IMG/VR virus record: IMGVR_UViG_3300030390_000396
Span: 1 to 23,196 of that record
Reading direction: 5' to 3' (one strand)
DNA length: 23,196 nt
Source: a virus
A program made the position numbers and the translations under genes. Every line of letters starts with the position of its first letter. Position 1 is the stretch's first letter. This document shows, piece after piece, positions 3,415-23,196 of this stretch. The notes beneath the pieces are model-generated. The model ran no database searches. It was not told the origin of the DNA and was given only the letters and a program-made list of their open reading frames with translations.

Positions 3415-4695
3415 TTATTTCTCCTGGTGTATTTGATATTCGCTTTCAGCTGTTTGCTGTTCTGCTAATTTTTGTCTTGGTAATTCCGATAAAGATATAG
3501 CCATGTATCTTGCAGCATCGCAAGCGTGTGAGCTAAAATCCTTAACGGGTTTTGCACTAAAAATTCTCATCTTGTCATTATACTTTCGATGATGATGTCT
3601 TAATGCAGCTATTAATGGTTTAGTCGTTTCTGCGTCAAACCAACATTTAGGTAACACCATTTTTAAATTGTGTATTCCATCTTCTAATGGAAGTTTTGGC
3701 AGTACCCTAAATCTTATTCCTAATTGATAAGCAATTTCTCGTCTTGTTTTACCATTGCTAAACTCGTGAGTTTCAATGTCGTGTGGTGCATAGTGTTCAT
3801 CATAAACATAATCTTTATCTTTAATCATCTGAACATAATGCGGTAAACCTTCTTTGTTGTTTTCGTAATAATCAATAATCATTATTTGATTACCGACTTG
3901 TTGAAAAAAAACTATTGCTGTGTTGTCTCCGTAACCCAAATCCCATGCTGTCGAAACTAAAAGCGATGGATCATAAGCGATCCTGGTTATCTGTTTATTA
4001 TCTTCTAGTTTTTGTATTATGTTTCCATAAATAGAACCCGTTACGTTTGCCACCCAATCGCACTCAAATTCTTGCAAAAATTTACTATCCCCCATCTGAG
4101 CTTTAGCAGCGTCTAATTCTTCTTGTTCGACTAATTTAGTATCCGATGCTTTAGCTGTGTAAGCTAGCCACTTTGGATCACTTAATGCGTATTGGTATAA
4201 GTCATAAAATATATTACTCATTCCAGCTGGTGTCGAAATAAAATAAGCAAACCCATGCCTATCAGAAATAGCGGGTCTTAAAATTTCGTGCCAAAGTTTT
4301 GGGTTCATCTGTGAACATTCATCAACACAAATTCCATCAGCGTAAATTCCTCTAATACGATCTGGATCTTCTCCAGACATCAATGTTATTCTTGCGCCAT
4401 TGGGAAAGTCGCATCTTAACTCGGTTTCGTTAAATGTAGTACCAGGAATACAGCCAGCGTATTGTTTTAAATAATCCCAACAAACCCGTTTAATACTTAC
4501 AAATGTTGGCCCGATCAGATAATACCTTGGGTTTTTCTTATCATTGGTTAGAGCTTTCCTAATCAAATGAAGTATAACCAATATTGTTTTCCCAAATCTA
4601 CGATGACAGTTTAAAACTGCAAATCTATGATTATCCAAATCCTCATGCAGCTTCGCTTGTAATGGCCGAGGCGTATAAGGTATCTGGATGTGCAT
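3415..4695 (-). CDS. terL: Terminase large subunit (packaging ATPase and nuclease)
   Basis: A 426-residue packaging motor protein. The Walker A variant CHRRFGKT is at 30-37, Walker B GICVDE at 121-126, and the coupling motif STP at 154-156. The C-terminal RNase H-like nuclease shows an acidic residue in WDLGYGD (D252), a second strand IMIIDYY (D275) and HACDAARY near 390 (D393). Length and motif order are those of a complete terminase. With the small subunit it cuts concatemeric DNA and pumps it into the prohead through the portal encoded downstream. Its ATG overlaps the TAA of a 32-codon gene (TAATG), so translation is probably coupled to it. Confidence 0.95.
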   Translation of the reverse strand: MHIQIPYTPRPLQAKLHEDLDNHRFAVLNCHRRFGKTILVILHLIRKALTNDKKNPRYYLIGPTFVSIKRVCWDYLKQYAGCIPGTTFNETELRCDFPNGARITLMSGEDPDRIRGIYADGICVDECSQMNPKLWHEILRPAISDRHGFAYFISTPAGMSNIFYDLYQYALSDPKWLAYTAKASDTKLVEQEELDAAKAQMGDSKFLQEFECDWVANVTGSIYGNIIQKLEDNKQITRIAYDPSLLVSTAWDLGYGDNTAIVFFQQVGNQIMIIDYYENNKEGLPHYVQMIKDKDYVYDEHYAPHDIETHEFSNGKTRREIAYQLGIRFRVLPKLPLEDGIHNLKMVLPKCWFDAETTKPLIAALRHHHRKYNDKMRIFSAKPVKDFSSHACDAARYMAISLSELPRQKLAEQQTAESEYQIHQEK

Positions 4696-4800: not shown

Positions 4801-5001
4801 CTAGTGTAGTGTGGGTAGATCAACCATATCTAAAATTGAGTTGTATTCGATCCCACTATTTTTCATTAATTTTTTTACAAAAGTATTTGCGTGCTTTGGA
4901 TCGTCAAATCCATTTAAGTGGATAACCATGCCGTTTGTATCTTCGGCTAGGAAAACCATTGCAGTAATCATTTTGTTTTTATCTTTTATTCTGTCATTCA
5001 T
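4801..5001 (-). CDS. Small hypothetical protein upstream of terL
   Basis: A 66-residue protein if it starts at the ATG at 5001 (MNDRIKDKNKMITAMVF). A TTG at 5037 would add 12 residues encoded by a CTGTGT microsatellite (HTDTDT), which looks less natural. Neither start has a good Shine-Dalgarno. The middle reads FLAEDTNGMVIHLNGFDDPKHANTFVKKLM, which looks like a small alpha/beta fold; I recognise no family. The stop lies within the ribosome-binding region of the 32-residue membrane peptide gene, so the two are in one operon. Confidence 0.55.
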   Translation of the reverse strand: MNDRIKDKNKMITAMVFLAEDTNGMVIHLNGFDDPKHANTFVKKLMKNSGIEYNSILDMVDLPTLH

Positions 5002-5070
5002 AATCTGTGTGTCTGTGTCTGTGTGCTGAACTCCCAACTTATATATACTTAGAAAATGCGGGTGGATTTT

Positions 5071-5082
5071 GGGGTATACCCC
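5071..5082. repeat. Perfect 12-base palindrome GGGGTATACCCC
   Basis: GGGGTATACCCC is a perfect palindrome in an otherwise AT-rich gap between the small and large terminase genes. Its G and C runs stand out against the surroundings. It could be a binding site for a dimeric protein such as a terminase or regulator, or part of a packaging site. No direct evidence selects among these. Confidence 0.4.
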
Positions 5083-5106
5083 CCTAAATGTTCTCGCAAT
5101 GTTCTG

Positions 5107-5202
5107 CTTTTATATGCAAATACAATGGTTCGTAGGTATAAAACCTACCAACTATTGGCGTTGTTCTTTATTTATTTAATAAACCAGAGAGCAACCAGAG
5201 AG
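5107..5202. repeat. att-like module between the terminase genes (partial copy of attP region)
   Basis: From left to right: CTTTTATATGCAAA (5107-5120), a core GTTCGTAGG-7-CCTACCAA (5128-5151), GTTGTTCTT (5160-5168), and two CCAGAGAG arms 11 bases apart (5184-5191 and 5195-5202). All four words also occur around the probable attP at 15986-16206. There the paired arms and the AAGAACAAC word lie on the other side of the core, so the arm-plus-spacer block is inverted. The 7-base centre differs: TATAAAA here, ATTTGAA there. The arms look like paired integrase or regulator binding sites. See the matching finding. Confidence 0.55.
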
Positions 5203-5280: not shown

Positions 5281-5712
5281 CTATCCAGTTGGTAAGCTCG
5301 GAACAGCTGTCGTTTGTATTTCTTCCACAATCTTTTTAGCATCAACCATATCATTTGGATTACCCCAACTTACAGTTATTGTCGTGTCTTGTTTAATATC
5401 TTGTTGTAGCTTGTCGCCAAATGTTTTAGCAGCAAGTTTAGACGCAAGCCATCTTATATGACTATATTTCTCTCTTAAAAAATGTGTCTCTTGTGGTGTC
5501 TTTGGGATCTCCATATCTTCCGCTATCTTATCGAGTAAAGTCCAAACGCCAGTTTGTCTTGCTTGCATGATTTTATCGTGAAGCTCTTTATTATCTCTTG
5601 AGTGCTTGTAAACTGTTGAAGCGTCTGGAAGTTTTTTATCTCTTGTAATTTTTGATAAAGGCTCGCCTAGCTCTAAACGCTTGATGATTTCATCTGTTTG
5701 TTTTGTATCCAT
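5281..5712 (-). CDS. terS: Terminase small subunit, Sf6 gp1-like
   Basis: A 143-residue protein. The front carries an HTH of the form IIKRLELGEPLSKITRD, then KLPDASTVYKHSRDN, matching the DNA-binding start of Sf6-like small terminases (I-x-x-R-x-x-x-GE-S/P-L-x-x-I, then P-x-x-STV). The middle KYSHIRWLASKLAAKTFGDK corresponds to the family's RxxARKWxASKLxPKxYGDK helix. These proteins form a ring that recognises the packaging site and hands DNA to the large subunit. The gene overlaps the one upstream by 40 bases and has no clear Shine-Dalgarno. About 580 bases and two tiny genes separate it from terL, which is more than usual. Confidence 0.85.
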   Translation of the reverse strand: MDTKQTDEIIKRLELGEPLSKITRDKKLPDASTVYKHSRDNKELHDKIMQARQTGVWTLLDKIAEDMEIPKTPQETHFLREKYSHIRWLASKLAAKTFGDKLQQDIKQDTTITVSWGNPNDMVDAKKIVEEIQTTAVPSLPTG

Positions 5713-6957: not shown

Positions 6958-7349
6958 TGGATAGCCTTTTTTACACAATGCGGATCGTGCTGCTCTTGTA
7001 GTAATTCTAATACTTGAAACCAACCATCTGGCAGCATTAATGTTTCTTTACCTTTTGTAGGTGTCAGCTGCGTAACTCTAAGGCTAACAACTTCTCTATT
7101 CTCATTGGCTTGATAGAAAACCAGGAAGGAAGGTAAACTAGCTAGATTGGCTAACGCTTCAGTAGTCGTTGTCGCTTTCCACGTCTGGCCCCGATCAAAG
7201 CACGTCTCGGCCAGATACAACGGAATTTTACAAACCTTGCAAATACCAACCGCATCCATATCAATCATGTAAACTTGATTATTTCTGCACCACTCGGAAT
7301 ACGGATCGCCAGTATTAAAATAATTACCTTTTAAAGTTCCTCTAACCAA
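6954..7349 (-). CDS. Possible PD-(D/E)XK-like nuclease next to the methyltransferase
   Basis: A 131-residue protein starting at a TTG at 7349 that overlaps the end of the methyltransferase gene and has a strong GGAGGT Shine-Dalgarno 5 bases upstream. The core shows YMIDMDAVGICKVCKIPLYLAETCFDRG and later ALANLASLPSFLVFY. A D-x-D, then a strand ending in an acidic residue, then a P-S-F-L-V-F-Y strand recalls small PD-(D/E)XK nucleases, but the usual Lys after the Glu is replaced (E-T-C). A CxxC pair may bind zinc. The nuclease reading is tentative. Its stop overlaps the next ATG. Confidence 0.4.
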   Translation of the reverse strand: MVRGTLKGNYFNTGDPYSEWCRNNQVYMIDMDAVGICKVCKIPLYLAETCFDRGQTWKATTTTEALANLASLPSFLVFYQANENREVVSLRVTQLTPTKGKETLMLPDGWFQVLELLQEQHDPHCVKKAIQ

Positions 7350-8253
7350 GTTCTACCTCCATTATAGCTTTTCCGATTTCTCTTGCGATTTGTGGAACGA
7401 TTGAGTTTCCGAGTGATTTAATTCTGTTTGCTCGATCTTTGTCCAATTCATAGGATAACCCATTAACATTTCTACAAATGTCGGATTGAGCTTCCCACCA
7501 ACTTTCGGTTTTTCCAGAAATTCCATTGCATCTTGAAGTCTTGCTCCGTATGTCATGTGTGGTTTGTTTTTTTTCCGTAGTATGAAACCCCCAGATTTTG
7601 TTCTCTCTACTCTGCTCGATTGTGGGGTGTTGATGTTCGTTGCGTTTGGTGTTGGATACATCATGTGAACTACTTGGGTTAGAGGTGGCTTTTGACCCCC
7701 CGATGATTTCTTCCTCGGGTTCTTGAACTCGTACTGATCGAATGTTGTTGGTGTTGGAAATGTTCTTCTCATTGCAGCCGATGATCCAGACACGTTTTCT
7801 TTGATGCCATGCACCTTTACCGCTAGCTGGTATAATAAGACTTTGCGTTTCGAAACCTTCGCTTTCCAAGTCATCGTGGATCTGTCTGAACACCATGCCG
7901 TCTTGGATGTTAATAATGCCTTCAACATTTTCCCCAATGAACCATTTGGGTTTTGTCTCGGATACAATTCTAATAGTCTCATCCCAGAGGAAGCGATCAT
8001 CGTCTGTTCCTCGTCTTTTTCCCGCAACGGAGAATGGTTGGCACGGGAACCCTCCAGTAATGACATCTGCTCTAAATCTTTCTCCTTTGACATTCCTTAC
8101 ATCATCCTCGATTGGTACATTTGGAAAATTCTTTCGTAATACTTTTTGACAAAACTTATCTTTTTCAACAAATGAAATAGTTTTAAAAAATCCCGTGCTT
8201 TCCAAACCAAGCGAGAAACCACCAATGCCAGAAAATAAATCAAGCACATTCAC
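7342..8253 (-). CDS. dcm: Cytosine-5 DNA methyltransferase
   Basis: A 303-residue enzyme transferring a methyl group from S-adenosylmethionine to C5 of cytosine. Motif I is DLFSGIGGFSLG (5-16), motif IV GGFPCQPFS (67-75) with catalytic C71, motif VI GENV (107-110), motif VIII HQRKRVWIIG (150-159). The target-recognition region spans about 160-255, with the Ser/Asn/Thr-rich ISNTNN and VSNTKRN units common in phage enzymes. Motif X is SLGNSIVPQIAREIGKAI near the C-terminus. All catalytic motifs are intact. It probably protects phage DNA from host restriction. The start overlaps the upstream stop by 4 bases (ATGA). A long second reading frame is nested within it. Confidence 0.95.
   Translation of the reverse strand: MNVLDLFSGIGGFSLGLESTGFFKTISFVEKDKFCQKVLRKNFPNVPIEDDVRNVKGERFRADVITGGFPCQPFSVAGKRRGTDDDRFLWDETIRIVSETKPKWFIGENVEGIINIQDGMVFRQIHDDLESEGFETQSLIIPASGKGAWHQRKRVWIIGCNEKNISNTNNIRSVRVQEPEEEIIGGSKATSNPSSSHDVSNTKRNEHQHPTIEQSRENKIWGFHTTEKKQTTHDIRSKTSRCNGISGKTESWWEAQSDICRNVNGLSYELDKDRANRIKSLGNSIVPQIAREIGKAIMEVELG
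7362..8093 (-). CDS. Candidate overlapping gene nested in the methyltransferase gene
   Basis: An alternative frame, offset by one base from the methyltransferase, is open for 243 codons from the ATG at 8093. Its product is not random-looking. It has SSGMRLLELY, then PNGSLGKMLKALL, MTWKAKVSKRKVLLYQLAV, two FPTPTT/YPTPNAT units and GGKLNPTFVEMLMGYPMNWTKIE. From memory, phage proteins with the order SSG...GPLGSL...LTWK...LLFQLxxS, LPTPxAxD, LNPxxVEWLMGxPxGWT recur in databases as hypothetical or methyltransferase-related. The same DNA encodes motif VIII and the EAQSDICRNVNGLS segment in the main frame. No Shine-Dalgarno is evident at 8093. Whether it is translated, alone or by frameshifting, cannot be told here. 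Confidence 0.4.
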   Translation of the reverse strand: MSKEKDLEQMSLLEGSRANHSPLREKDEEQTMIASSGMRLLELYPRQNPNGSLGKMLKALLTSKTAWCSDRSTMTWKAKVSKRKVLLYQLAVKVHGIKENVSGSSAAMRRTFPTPTTFDQYEFKNPRKKSSGGQKPPLTQVVHMMYPTPNATNINTPQSSRVERTKSGGFILRKKNKPHMTYGARLQDAMEFLEKPKVGGKLNPTFVEMLMGYPMNWTKIEQTELNHSETQSFHKSQEKSEKL

Positions 8254-14273: not shown

Positions 14274-15488
14274 ATGAAAGTTCAAGTCGTAGAGGAGCTT
14301 AGAGCTGGCGGTAAAAAGTTAGTTGTCCAGGTAGTTTACAAAGTTAATGGTAAAACTAAAAAACAAAACAAAGAAGTTTTTGGTTTAAATGAAAAAAGAA
14401 AAGCTGAAGCCTTAAGATCTAAATTAGAAAATTCTGAAAAAACAGATGTCGTAGATCAGAAAATTACATTTCAAGATGCTTTAAACTCTTACATAAAAGT
14501 ATTAGAGCAAGGCACGTTAAACACTCCAGAGTATGTGCAGATGCAGATTGGTTATATTAAAAACCATGTGTCGCCATACATCAACCAGGAATTTTTATCA
14601 GATTATAAAATGTCTGATTTTAAAGAATTTACATTACCTAAGATTTTATCTAGTAAGCAGCTTGCCTGGAGAACTAAAGACGGCAAGGAATATTATATAA
14701 AATTAGATAAAACCATTGGTAAAAAAACTATTAAAGAAGTAGTTGGCGAATTTAAAAAATTTGTTAAATATTGTTTAGAGCATTCTTGGAAGATTGATTA
14801 TTCAATAATGACTTTTAAATTTCAAAAAAATTTCTTTACTCAATACATTAAGAAAAAAGAATGGCTGCCACAAGCTCACGAATTGTTAAGCGTTCTTAAT
14901 AGTGAAAAAGATATTAAGTTAAAAACATTGTACCAATTAGCTGCCGAGGCTGGCCCGAGAGCTAACGAGGTTGTTGCTGTTTGTTATGATGATATTGACT
15001 TTGATAATGGTAAAATCCACCTTAACCACTCACTAGACAAATGGAATAAATTTAGACCCTACTTCTTAAAAACTGGTGTAAATGCTAGAGATCCAATTAT
15101 GGCATCTGATAAATTATTAACTTTATTAGACATATGGATGAAAACGCAGCTGTTTCCAAAGACTTTAAGAAATACTGTTTACCAGGATCCTTTTACTAAA
15201 GAATTAAAAAAAAGAAATTTTGTTAGAATTTTTGATTTAACTAAAAGTAGAGCTGGTAAAAAAGTAAAACAATCTGCCAAAAAACTTGGGATTGATTGGA
15301 AAAGTGGCTTATCTCCTTTCAGAAAATGGAGCATTTCAAGAATGGAAGATCTTAAAGTATTGACCGAAAAACAAATGGATAAAAGATACGGCAATACTAA
15401 AGAAATTAGAGATAACCATTATTACAAAGATTTGAATTTGAATGAAAAAGAAGGAAGAACTGCTATTAATCAAATAACCGAGGGATGA
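14274..15488 (+). CDS. int: Tyrosine recombinase (phage integrase)
   Basis: A 404-residue integrase with an N-terminal arm-binding domain, a core-binding domain (about 65-190) and a catalytic domain. The first catalytic Arg is R229 in AAEAGPRANEVVAV; the beta-hairpin Lys is K266 in YFLKTGVNARDPIM; the second Arg is R350 in SPFRKWSISR; the nucleophile is Y383 or Y384 in DNHYYKD. The usual His of the H-x-x-R motif is replaced by Ser347, and the second His/Trp is Asn374 (RYGN), so this is a divergent type. It inserts and excises the phage at attP, which lies 500 bases downstream. Confidence 0.9.
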   Translation: MKVQVVEELRAGGKKLVVQVVYKVNGKTKKQNKEVFGLNEKRKAEALRSKLENSEKTDVVDQKITFQDALNSYIKVLEQGTLNTPEYVQMQIGYIKNHVSPYINQEFLSDYKMSDFKEFTLPKILSSKQLAWRTKDGKEYYIKLDKTIGKKTIKEVVGEFKKFVKYCLEHSWKIDYSIMTFKFQKNFFTQYIKKKEWLPQAHELLSVLNSEKDIKLKTLYQLAAEAGPRANEVVAVCYDDIDFDNGKIHLNHSLDKWNKFRPYFLKTGVNARDPIMASDKLLTLLDIWMKTQLFPKTLRNTVYQDPFTKELKKRNFVRIFDLTKSRAGKKVKQSAKKLGIDWKSGLSPFRKWSISRMEDLKVLTEKQMDKRYGNTKEIRDNHYYKDLNLNEKEGRTAINQITEG

Positions 15489-15492
15489 TAGT

Positions 15493-15939
15493 ATGTCAGC
15501 AACTAAGGAAGTGGAGTTACAAGAAAAACAAAGAGTAGCAAAAGTATTATTTATTTTGCGAACTTTATCAAAGAAAACACAAACTAGAATTTCAAAGTCT
15601 ATTCAAGTTAGTTTTCAACAAATCCAAAAATATGAAAAAGCTATGAACGAAATTGGTTCAAGTAAATTGTTTATCTTATGTCGTAAACAAGGCTGGGATA
15701 TAAATTTATTATATAAAGGTGTGCCAGAAGATATGCTCCCTTCTATACCTTTATTTCAGCAAGATATGGTACTTAAAAAGTTTAGAGAGATAGATGCCAA
15801 CATAGAAGAAGAACGCAAGCTACAGAGGCGTTATGCTCCATTAATGCCTAAATTAAATCGTGAGCTAGCTGGCGAAAATACTTTTAAAGATCCCGTTGCA
15901 GACAAAGATCCACAATGGATTAATTTAAAAACTGCTTAA
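15493..15939 (+). CDS. HTH regulator downstream of integrase
   Basis: A 148-residue protein with an HTH in its first 70 residues: ILRTLSKKTQTRISKSIQVSFQQIQKYEKAMNEIGSSKLFILCRKQGW. The pattern VSFQQIQKYEKAxNxIGSSKL is that of XRE-type regulators in alphaproteobacteria (GVTFQQVQKYEKGxNRIGAxRL). The second half is helical and basic, with EEERKLQRRYAPLMPK. It is 4 bases from the integrase stop and directly in front of attP. It could regulate integrase or act as an excision factor on the nearby repeats. Confidence 0.65.
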   Translation: MSATKEVELQEKQRVAKVLFILRTLSKKTQTRISKSIQVSFQQIQKYEKAMNEIGSSKLFILCRKQGWDINLLYKGVPEDMLPSIPLFQQDMVLKKFREIDANIEEERKLQRRYAPLMPKLNRELAGENTFKDPVADKDPQWINLKTA

Positions 15940-15985: not shown

Positions 15986-16206
15986 TTTACTCTCTGGTTT
16001 ACTCTCTGATGCTTTAAAAGTGTTGTGTAAGAACAACTGTTCGTAGGATTTGAACCTACCAATCATTTAGTTTATTATCGTTGATACATAACAGTTGCAA
16101 CCCCGATTAGTAACTTTATATATGCAAAAAGTGACGTTAAATAAGGGTTGTATTTCCTAGCTGATCTCACAAAGCAATATCATTTACTCTCTGATTACTC
16201 TCTGAT
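15986..16206 (+). other. attP: Probable attP with paired arm sites and a T-arm-like core
   Basis: Left arms TTTACTCTCTGG/TTTACTCTCTGA (15986-16009), AAGAACAAC (16029-16037), core GTTCGTAGG-ATTTGAA-CCTACCAA (16039-16062), TATATGCAAA (16119-16128), then right arms (16183-16206). Arm copies are spaced 11 or 12 bases, one helical turn, as for integrase arm sites. The core is an inverted repeat GTAGG/CCTAC around 7 bases; on the minus strand it reads as a tRNA T-stem and loop, with loop TTCAAAT. Many integrases cut in such tRNA arms. It lies just downstream of integrase and the HTH gene. No other gene is seen in this 290-base gap. Confidence 0.65.
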
Positions 16207-16230
16207 ACAAGACGTGCAAAATATAGAAGT

Positions 16231-16307
16231 CTGGGTGTAGCGTAGCCTGGTAACGCACTAGCTTTGGGAGCTAGGGATCGAAGGTTCAAATCCTTCCACC
16301 CAGACCA
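16231..16307 (+). tRNA. tRNA-Pro (anticodon TGG)
   Basis: A full 77-base cloverleaf. Acceptor CTGGGTG (16231-16237) pairs with CACCCAG (16297-16303), then discriminator A and an encoded CCA. D-stem GCGT/ACGC; anticodon stem CTAGC/GCTAG with loop TTTGGGA, giving anticodon TGG; T-stem GAAGG/CCTTC with loop TTCAAAT. It reads CCA, the main proline codon in this genome. The strand is opposite to the late genes and the CCA end is only 2 bases from the stop of the convergent gene. It could be transcribed from the integrase side or from its own AT-rich promoter (AATATAG just upstream). Confidence 0.95.
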
Positions 16308-20655: not shown

Positions 20656-20967
20656 TTATGCTCCAGTTAGAGCTTTGATTTCATCATCATCTAAACCAAG
20701 ATCTTTTAGCTTCTGTTTACCAGAGGCTTTTTTATCTATTGCTGCTGTTTCAGCATCTTTAATAGTTTGTATCATAGCATCTACATCAGATTTAGATGGT
20801 TTAACTGCATCTTTATTTTGAACTATTGTATTTTCATAAGTCATTCTTTGATCGTTAGGAATTTTGTTTCCATCACTATCAACTTTTTTCCAATTCCACC
20901 AATTAGGCGAATTGGTATTAAATCTCATATATGCTCTTTGTAAGTAATCTTTTTGTGGATCATTCAT
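20656..20967 (-). CDS. Small fibre-associated protein, copy 2
   Basis: A 103-residue protein that follows the second fibre gene by one base. It begins MNDPQKDYLQRAYMRFNTNSPNWWNWKKVD, then SDGNKIPNDQRMTYENT and a helical C-terminal half with DVDAMIQTIKDAETAAIDKKASGKQKLKDLGLDDDEI. The partial gene at the right edge (22923 onward) is a close paralogue through W-KK-DSDGNKIPN-QRMTY and the AAIDKKAS...LGLDD end. It is probably an accessory or assembly protein for the fibre next to it. No outside family is recognised with confidence. Confidence 0.6.
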   Translation of the reverse strand: MNDPQKDYLQRAYMRFNTNSPNWWNWKKVDSDGNKIPNDQRMTYENTIVQNKDAVKPSKSDVDAMIQTIKDAETAAIDKKASGKQKLKDLGLDDDEIKALTGA

Positions 20968-20968
20968 T

Positions 20969-21811
20969 TTATGTATCTCCTAATCTTATAAATGTAACTC
21001 CACTTGTTGTTGCAGCAGTTTCTCCATAAATATAAGCTGAAGAAAAACTTCCTGTGGCAAATTTACATTTTACGTTTGTAGTGTTTGTAACATCAATAAC
21101 TGTATTATAGGCAACAGTACCATTCTGTGCTCCAGATGCTCCAGAACTATTATATGCTCTTGTAGTGTATGTAGAATTATCTGTAGTAATCTTAAGAAAA
21201 ACATTACAAGAACCATCATTATCCATAGCAACATAAAAATGGCATAATGCTAACCAATATCCAGTTGATGGAAATGAAAAAATTCCTGATGATTGACTAA
21301 CTGCTGAGCCTAATGTGCTATAATCTGGTGTATCAACAACTTCCCAGTTTGCAGTTATATCAGCATTACTATTGCTATTGGTAGAAGAAGCATTTAATCT
21401 AAAAGTAGTTGCAGCTGTAATTCCACCAGCAGCAGCAAAAGATAAACCACCAGATCCATCGGTTTTTAAAAATTGATTAGCATCGCCATCGTTAGGCGGA
21501 AACGTAAGTGTGTAACTAGCGTTAGCAGAATGAGCTGGAGATTTTAATTTTATTCCATGTGAATTTTGAGAACAGTTTAATTGTATGTAACCATCTTGTG
21601 AGCTTCCGTCTCCTTTAGCTTCTAAACTAGGAACTGAACTTGTTGATATTAAATTCAGCTTATCAACTGTAACCGCATCATTTGTAATATTGCCATTTAC
21701 TACAGAGTTTGCAGTTACTAACTTACTGTCTTTAATATTTAAACCATCAACTGTAATTCCGTTAGCGGAAGTGTTTTCTTGAATGGTATCTACTTTAACT
21801 ATTGAACTCAT
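20969..21811 (-). CDS. Tail fibre protein, paralogue 2
   Basis: A 280-residue protein. The first 45 residues (VKVDTIQENTSANGITVDGLNIKDSKLV, then NSVVNGNITNDAV) form a repeat-like head shared with the second fibre and likely attach it to the virion. The middle has a GDGSSQDGYIQLNCSQNSHGIKLKSPAH unit and YTLTFPPNDGDANQFLKTDGSGGLSF, seen in many marine phage fibres. The C-terminal part (about 140-280) is a beta-rich C1q/TNF-like trimer domain with SGIFSFPSTGYWLALCHFYV and SAYIYGETA. It probably binds a cell-surface receptor. The C-terminal sequence differs from paralogue 1. Confidence 0.75.
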   Translation of the reverse strand: MSSIVKVDTIQENTSANGITVDGLNIKDSKLVTANSVVNGNITNDAVTVDKLNLISTSSVPSLEAKGDGSSQDGYIQLNCSQNSHGIKLKSPAHSANASYTLTFPPNDGDANQFLKTDGSGGLSFAAAGGITAATTFRLNASSTNSNSNADITANWEVVDTPDYSTLGSAVSQSSGIFSFPSTGYWLALCHFYVAMDNDGSCNVFLKITTDNSTYTTRAYNSSGASGAQNGTVAYNTVIDVTNTTNVKCKFATGSFSSAYIYGETAATTSGVTFIRLGDT

Positions 21812-22162: not shown

Positions 22163-22921
22163 CTATGTTATTAATTTGTATCCACCGAAAAAAGTCATAA
22201 GACCTGTACTGTTGTAATCTATTCTTGCATTTACTCCATCAGATGTATTTATTTTATAATAAACTTCAAAATAATCATTAGTATCAGAATCTACGACTGC
22301 TGATATACTGAGAGCATTTGTTCCATTATTTTGAATTGCGTCAGAAGCATAACCTCTACGAAATTCTCCTATGTCAGAACCATTTTTATAAAGTATAATA
22401 GTCATATCTACACCAACATTATTTAATGGATAAGCACCTACTTGAGAATAAATAAAGTATTTACCACTAACTCCAGGAGTAAATTTAGAACTAGCAAAAG
22501 TGTTATCTGTATCAAATTTTTCAGAAGTAAATGTTATTTTAGTTGTTGCGTTATCACTAACATCTTGAACACTACTTTTAAATGCTAAAAAAGCTGGAGT
22601 GTTAGTTCCACCAATACCAGATACAAAATTAGCTTTAGTCATTTTTCTTAATGCACTAGCACTTGCGTCATGGATTAAAATAGTATCTCCATCTGCAATA
22701 GAAGTTTCTGCTGTGTGTCCAGTTACAGCTGTTACATCCAGGTGTTCTTCAGAGATAGCATTGTCAGCGATCTTGGTTGCATCAATAGCATCCGCTGTTA
22801 TGTTTCCAGCAACAACTGAATTAGATGTAACCAGTTTGCTATCTTTAATATTTAATCCGTCAACAGTAACTCCATTGGCTGAAGTTTTTTCTGCTACTGT
22901 ATCTACTTTTATTTCACTCAT
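22163..22921 (-). CDS. Tail fibre protein, paralogue 1
   Basis: A 252-residue protein with the same head as paralogue 2 (IKVDTVAEKTSANGVTVDGLNIKDSKLV, then NSVVAGNITADAID). Next comes a short collagen-like-free linker with ATKIADNAISEEHLDVTAVTGHTAE and a GDTILIHDASASALRKMTKANF segment, a common phage fibre unit. The C-terminal 130 residues look like a C1q/TNF-type jelly roll (FKSSVQDVSDNATTKITF, FTPGVSGKYFIYSQVG, INTSDGVNARIDY). It is probably a receptor-binding protein. The gene follows the partial accessory gene by one base. Confidence 0.75.
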   Translation of the reverse strand: MSEIKVDTVAEKTSANGVTVDGLNIKDSKLVTSNSVVAGNITADAIDATKIADNAISEEHLDVTAVTGHTAETSIADGDTILIHDASASALRKMTKANFVSGIGGTNTPAFLAFKSSVQDVSDNATTKITFTSEKFDTDNTFASSKFTPGVSGKYFIYSQVGAYPLNNVGVDMTIILYKNGSDIGEFRRGYASDAIQNNGTNALSISAVVDSDTNDYFEVYYKINTSDGVNARIDYNSTGLMTFFGGYKLIT

Positions 22922-22922
22922 A

Positions 22923-23196
22923 TTATAATCCTAAAGTTTTAAGTTCTGCATCATCTAAACCAAGTGCTTTTAGTTTTGTTTTTGCAGATGCTTTTTTATC
23001 TATTGCTGCTTGTTCAGCATCTTTGATTTCTTGTATCTTTGCATTAACATCAGCTTCACTTGGAATAGTTGCACCTTCTCTAATAACTTCAATATTTGCG
23101 TAAGTCATTCTTTGATTGTTAGGAATTTTATTTCCATCACTATCTGTTTTTTTCCAACTGTACCAACCAGCACCACCATTGAATTTGCATAATGCA
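22923..23196 (-). CDS. Small fibre-associated protein, copy 1 (runs off right edge)
   Basis: The frame is open to the window edge; 90 residues are visible. An ATG at 23108 exists, but the codons before it (LCKFNGGAGWYSWKKTDSD and GNKIPNNQR) match residues of the 103-residue paralogue at 20656, so the real start lies outside the window. The C-terminal half (DVNAKIQEIKDAEQAAIDKKASAKTKLKALGLDD) also matches. It belongs to the fibre cluster. With the paralogue downstream of fibre 2, the array reads accessory, fibre, chaperone, fibre, accessory. Confidence 0.7.
   Translation of the reverse strand, partial: ALCKFNGGAGWYSWKKTDSDGNKIPNNQRMTYANIEVIREGATIPSEADVNAKIQEIKDAEQAAIDKKASAKTKLKALGLDDAELKTLGL

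Follow-up and report, generated by a model that had tools for sequence, protein, structure and literature searches.

Phage P1 carries the Cre/lox system at a site near pac, where it cyclises terminally redundant DNA and resolves dimers. The locus described here, an att-like module that we name ter and that lies between the terminase genes terS and terL of a marine phage, resembles P1 lox in that a tyrosine-recombinase core, apparently self-compatible, lies near what would be the packaging start and has an overlap that is free to vary. It differs from the P1 system in the enzyme, which would be an arm-binding integrase that acts at attP as well and inserts the phage into a tRNA gene, in the presence of arm sites at ter, and in that recombination at ter is putative. 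With respect to lambda-type attP and attR sites, the arm pair and core of ter look like half of an att site (attR-like), but ter has no partner att with the same overlap and is fixed between terS and terL. A further parallel is provided by Xer/dif and the plasmid sites cer, psi and pdif, since integrase-less relatives of the phage have host dif-like half-sites at the same position, whereas the phage analysed here has a putative site for its own integrase in place of the host site.

Systems with a single Xer recombinase, i.e. XerS/dif-SL, XerH/difH and XerL/dif (PMC2731167, PMC5357621, PMC9765430), are comparable to what we observed in SAR11, the host of HTVC010P-type phages, where one recombinase is accompanied by a dif-like repeat beside its gene. 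However, SAR11 (Pelagibacter) has been reported to be without dif/Xer (PMC2731167), and the SAR11 protein scores far below the XerC/XerD cut-offs. The phages also share with IMEX (CTXphi, LME-1) the character of a mobile element with a dif mimic; unlike in IMEX, the phage overlap is mostly incompatible with host dif, the site is located at the packaging genes, and no integrated copy was seen. The HTVC010P type has been called the commonest type of phage in the ocean (PMC3861242).

The window, i.e. the whole stretch of DNA analysed, is one entire linear IMG/VR record of 23,196 bases, a SAR11-phage contig. The order on its minus strand is terS, a non-coding stretch of ∼240 bases, a small ORF, terL and the portal gene, while the plus strand carries int, an HTH gene, attP and tRNA-Pro. 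The features are as follows:

3415 to 4695, minus strand: terL (PF03237; protein 58–60% identical to TerL of the HTVC010P group of SAR11 phages)
4801 to 5037, minus strand: small conserved ORF between ter and terL (78 amino acids from a TTG start, with an in-frame ATG downstream)
5071 to 5084, minus strand: G-rich palindrome GGGGGGTATACCCC, downstream of ter, with a related element in some integrase-less isolates too
5128 to 5152, minus strand: ter core, half-sites GTTGGTAGG and CCTACGAAC, with the 7-nt overlap TTTTATA at 5137–5143
5160 to 5168, minus strand: the word AAGAACAAC within the ter module, unlikely to be a functional element common to both sites
5184 to 5202, minus strand: ter arm-type pair CTCTCTGGTTGCTCTCTGG, conserved and covarying with the attP arms
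5281 to 5712, minus strand: terS, encoding an Sf6 gp1-like small terminase (PF20901, 9e-18; PDB 3hef/4dyc, 1e-5)
14274 to 15488, plus strand: tyrosine integrase gene (PF00589, 1.4e-6)
15493 to 15939, plus strand: HTH protein gene, present after int in almost every related int locus examined
15989 to 16009, plus strand: attP P-arm pair
16039 to 16063, plus strand: attP core, overlap ATTTGAA, resembling a tRNA T-arm
16186 to 16207, plus strand: attP P'-arm pair
16231 to 16307, plus strand: complete tRNA-Pro(TGG) adjoining attP

No family match was found for the small ORF. The AlphaFold model of the integrase (pLDDT 75, pTM 0.55) shows an N-terminal domain of three strands plus a helix (residues 1–53), predicted to be of the arm-binding kind, followed by the core-binding and catalytic regions. 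Its top Foldseek matches were XerA and lambda Int, which are taken at the family level only because the global TM-scores were low. In the alignment, R229, K266, R350 and a tyrosine near position 383 are conserved, and both usual catalytic histidine positions are replaced, as they are across the whole family of this integrase. The SAR11 tRNA-Pro(TGG) gene is the attB of a related integrase type. In several phages of the group, the window phage included, a complete tRNA-Pro(TGG) beside attP plausibly stands in for the host gene disrupted by integration. Phages of integrase types G001 and G009 have no complete tRNA-Pro(TGG) beside attP; their attP holds a longer tRNA 3' end.

An initial annotation of the window had listed the elements common to the module between the terminase genes and the attP region, and all of them were recovered at their positions. 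Its observation that the 7-base centres differ (TATAAAA, as read on the plus strand, versus ATTTGAA) was also confirmed. Exact matches to the core pattern GTTCGTAGG-N7-CCTACCAA occur in the window only at 5128–5151 and 16039–16062, and 0.03 matches with up to three mismatches would be expected there by chance. The motif CTCTCTG is present in six copies, a number reached in 1 of 100 shuffles, and all copies are paired, with arms 11–12 bases apart: 5185/5196 on the minus strand at ter, and 15990/16002 and 16187/16198 on the plus strand at attP. Overall, ter and the attP region are 74% similar over 42 bases. The ter core consists of 9-7-9 inverted half-sites around the overlap, the half-sites matching those of attP. 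On the sense strand of terL the order is arm pair, AAGAACAAC, core, and both this order and the arm–core spacing are like those of the P-arm half of attP. Only the one (P) arm pair is present at ter; there is no second (P') pair, and ter therefore resembles a half-att site rather than a full attP.

The words AAGAACAAC and TATATGCAAA, which the initial annotation had counted among the shared parts, are indeed found at both sites in the window (two copies being reached in 7 and 3 of 100 shuffles, respectively). At attP, however, AAGAACAAC is restricted to the window phage and its near-twin L082, and TATATGCAAA to the window phage; as neither is conserved at the attP of relatives, both are probably incidental. 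A role of these words as Xis or regulator sites was rejected on the same grounds. The real shared parts of ter and attP, as judged by comparison of the sequences, are probably the core and the arms, the two other words being a coincidence.

Forty-eight terL loci of the same clade were collected, 41 of them with sufficient upstream sequence. Arms and core at a constant arm–core distance were present in 39 of these 41 testable loci, and the lack of conservation in close relatives, which the initial annotation had named as the outcome speaking against its proposal, was not what we found. Upstream of terL in two loci (L036 and L037) there is another palindrome, with no CTCTCTG-type arms. The flanking block is conserved as well, comprising TTTGCATATAAA, the GGGGTATACCCC palindrome, an AT-rich stretch and the small ORF. 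Relatives have kept the tRNA-like core of attP together with its arms, including the P' arms.

The G-rich palindrome (5071–5084 and its equivalents) and the AT-rich element are kept in many temperate and lytic relatives; this part of the region, downstream of ter, may serve as a packaging cut site or a late promoter. Contig ends upstream of terL, judged by eye among the 48 loci, did not form a clear cluster marking a physical terminus.

The attP and terS–terL regions were then compared with each other in the fetched related contigs. In each type, the ter arms are similar to the attP arms of the same genome. The arm sequences at ter and attP are, respectively, CTCTCTGG and CTCTCTGA in the window phage, ACTCCCTGG and ACTCCCTGA in type G004, TACTGTC and TACTGAC in G009, and TACTCCCG and TACTCCCC in G005; the arms at both sites are CACTCTAA in G001, CACACTCT in G008 and ACTACTAA in G019. 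The cultured phage HTVC028P, the integrase of which was not detected by the A1 profile, has TTCACTA-type repeats both at the attP region and between an Sf6-like terS and terL. For eight integrase types, the true pairing of ter and attP arms scored best of 40,320 permutations, a figure that gives support rather than an exact probability, as the arm windows were picked by eye. In G009 the arms alone clearly differ from those of the window phage, while the rest of the module is very similar and the TerL proteins are 93–94% identical, a pattern suggestive of stepwise adaptation to another integrase. The core half-sites also track the integrase in several types. In G019 the ter module is inverted relative to terL, which indicates that a fixed geometry to a promoter is not required. 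Conservation of the module and covariation of its arms with the integrase strongly support a second integrase binding site, one of the options raised by the initial annotation; a role of ter as a second recognition site for the phage's own integrase can be regarded as well supported at the level of sequence comparison.

The 7-base overlap does not follow this pattern, since that of ter differs from the attP overlap of the same phage in every pair examined. The attP overlaps, ATTTGAA or ATTCGAA, correspond to the T-loop of the tRNA. As a functional attP for integration, ter falls short in two respects: its overlap, which would have to be identical to that of a host attB, is not the T-loop overlap of attP, and arms are present on one side of the core only. 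The difference in overlaps also led us to reject the suggestion that ter and attP border an invertible or excisable 11-kb segment, and a swappable 11-kb block fits poorly with a terS–terL position that is constant while the integrase type varies.

One record of type G005 (IMGVR_UViG_3300030098_000945; 69,712 bases) contains two different integrases of the group, for which reason it may join two phage genomes.

A Xer-like tyrosine recombinase of ∼318 amino acids was identified in 13 of the 14 SAR11 genomes searched. It is the single PF00589 match in 12 of them, the thirteenth having a second, weaker match, and it is distantly XerC/XerD-like (77 bits, against a cut-off of 329.6). Just upstream of the gene, all 13 genomes that have it carry a dif-like palindrome (loci L369–L381, near position 1100 or its mirror), which is ACTATTGATAA-CCATTAA-TTATCGTTAGT in type 1 and TTTCCGATAA-CCATTAA-TTATCGGAAAT in type 2. 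A stricter pattern gave one copy in each of the nine SAR11 genomes that it could match and zero control matches. Canonical proteobacterial dif was not found in SAR11, and a dif pattern with a 6-nt spacer gave only chance-level matches there, the actual spacer being 7 nt. These comparisons indicate that SAR11 has a conserved Xer-like recombinase and a single-copy palindromic site, the latter being a predicted host dif.

Tyrosine recombinases are absent from nine of the ten HTVC010P-group isolates tested. At the position of ter, the integrase-less isolates of this group carry variably degenerate inverted repeats of the form GATAA-N6/7-TTATC, such as CTATTGATAA-CTTTAA-TTATCGTTAGT upstream of terL in HTVC100P and CTATTAATAA-TCATAAG-TTATCGTTAGT in HTVC035P. 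Matrices built from the host dif-like sites of types 1 and 2 were used to search the phage genomes, and the genome-wide best match to either type was located upstream of terL in 8 of 11 integrase-less isolates. These eight include HTVC106P, the terL of which is only 47% identical to that of the window. The scores of Lederberg, HTVC203P and Skadi-6 were near the shuffled-genome level, and it is their position that makes these matches informative; HTVC010P, HTVC034P and HTVC204P have degenerate dif-like repeats only. No host dif-like site was detected with the matrices in the integrase-bearing HTVC028P or the window phage, nor canonical dif in more distant non-SAR11 phages with a related terL. 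In HTVC035P, HTVC100P and HTVC106P (L386, L390 and L397) a type-1 and a type-2 site lie side by side upstream of terL, as if suited to hosts of both dif types.

When 2.9 million IMG/VR viral contigs were scanned with the exact type-1 half-sites, 38 contigs matched. A terL gene of known kinds was found near the site in 28 of them and a divergent terminase gene in three more; in 27 of the 28 the start of terL is 312–458 bases from the site, and two are in reversed orientation. Neither host xer nor a known integrase was present in the fetched stretches around the type-1 sites, and PF00589 proteins were lacking from all 20 whole records tested, an absence that is suggestive only, because the records are fragments. 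In the type-2 half-site scan, terL was found at at least 41 of 78 new loci among the matches listed, mostly 315–610 bases away. The overlaps from the type-1 scan vary; those of 3 of the 38 contigs are identical to one found at host dif (CAATTAA), and integration would be possible at these instead. Most overlaps of integrase-less phages differ from the host overlap.

We consider it reasonably likely that ter is a lox/dif-like self-recombination site, on which the phage's own integrase would act in the window phage and host Xer in its relatives. The phage integrase would recognise ter through its one arm pair and symmetric core, and would recombine it with a second ter, located either on a separate genome copy or at the opposite end of one terminally redundant genome. 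Such an exchange would circularise or monomerise phage DNA near the packaging start, and in integrase-less relatives the host Xer/dif-like half-sites at the ter position would do the same job. We infer this binding, strand exchange and purpose from the following. Half-sites matched to the recombinase, combined with a usually non-chromosomal overlap, are expected of a self-recombining site and less so of a regulator or integration site; recombination of ter with attP or with the tRNA gene of the host would not be expected, since the ter overlap differs from that of attP. The site at this position in relatives, with host dif-like half-sites upstream of terL, resembles a resolution-type site. The location of ter between terS and terL, the Sf6-like TerS and the headful packaging suggested for the HTVC010P group (PMC10504331) fit, by analogy, a role like that of P1 lox. 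The spot between the terminase genes is probably a place at which phage genomes undergo breakage and joining with one another. On balance, we also lean towards a broader reading, in which one integrase may have two jobs, tRNA integration at attP and recombination between phage genomes at a self-specific site next to the terminase genes. That site would be evolutionarily interchangeable with a mimic of an unrecognised SAR11 single-Xer/dif system, the available recombinase dictating its sequence.

The main rival to self-recombination is a regulatory or packaging gate, in which integrase bound at ter blocks terS-to-terL transcription or the start of packaging until excision, with no strand exchange. 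The module does lie inside the packaging region, upstream of the conserved AT-rich element, and its place upstream of a possible promoter element means that it could act by binding alone. Proteins of the recombinase fold can moreover be pure repressors, SPbeta MrpR and YopR and phi3T SroF being among the structural matches of the integrase, and the absence of both catalytic histidines favours a gate and speaks against recombination, although the whole family shares it. Self-recombination is also weakened by the degenerate repeats of HTVC010P, HTVC034P and HTVC204P, by the host overlap in 3 of the 38 contigs and by the lack of canonical dif in the more distant non-SAR11 phages, and no product of recombination was observed. 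We nevertheless regard a gate as rather unlikely, since it leaves the host dif-like half-sites at the same place in integrase-less relatives unexplained, also in the form proposed in the initial annotation (packaging tied to excision), and since the module is inverted in G019.

Integration at an alternative location, such as host dif, through ter, or in lytic relatives through their dif-like site, would be IMEX-like and has a precedent in Legionella LME-1, which integrates via a dif mimic (PMC9765430). The host dif half-sites of integrase-less relatives, and the exact host overlap in 3 of 38 contigs, are in line with it. Most overlaps are nevertheless unlike that of the host, in no examined pair does the ter of a temperate phage have the tRNA overlap, and no prophage with a relative of the integrase was detected in 84,980 genomes scanned with the integrase alignment, which makes such integration very improbable. 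The arms shared by ter and attP would also suit an accessory site, with the integrase bridging the two across 11 kb and controlling the direction of integration and excision; we give this even less credence, as it accounts neither for the separate overlap of the ter core nor for the presence of a host dif-like site in integrase-less relatives. That ter is a relic or chance duplication of attP, or a decaying att copy as the initial annotation had put it, is scarcely credible: the 74% similarity of the two regions would agree with such an origin, but the relic is refuted by the conservation of the module in relatives and contradicted by its covariation with the integrase.

If self-recombination at ter is true, genome maintenance of HTVC010P-type phages depends on site-specific recombination at the packaging region, for which some of them draw on a recombinase of the host and others on an integrase. 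The phage sites would then offer a direct handle on the apparent SAR11 Xer/dif system, reported absent, and an internal marker in metagenomes of an integrase-dependent versus a Xer-dependent lifestyle. They would also show how a DNA site can be adapted again and again as its enzyme changes.

Elsewhere in the window, the tail region contains two sets of repeats, 20668–20902 versus 22932–23166 (77%) and 21675–21796 versus 22788–22909 (72%), which are likely to be duplicated tail genes. At the C5 cytosine methylase gene, two long ORFs (7342–8253 and 7362–8093) overlap in different frames of the minus strand.
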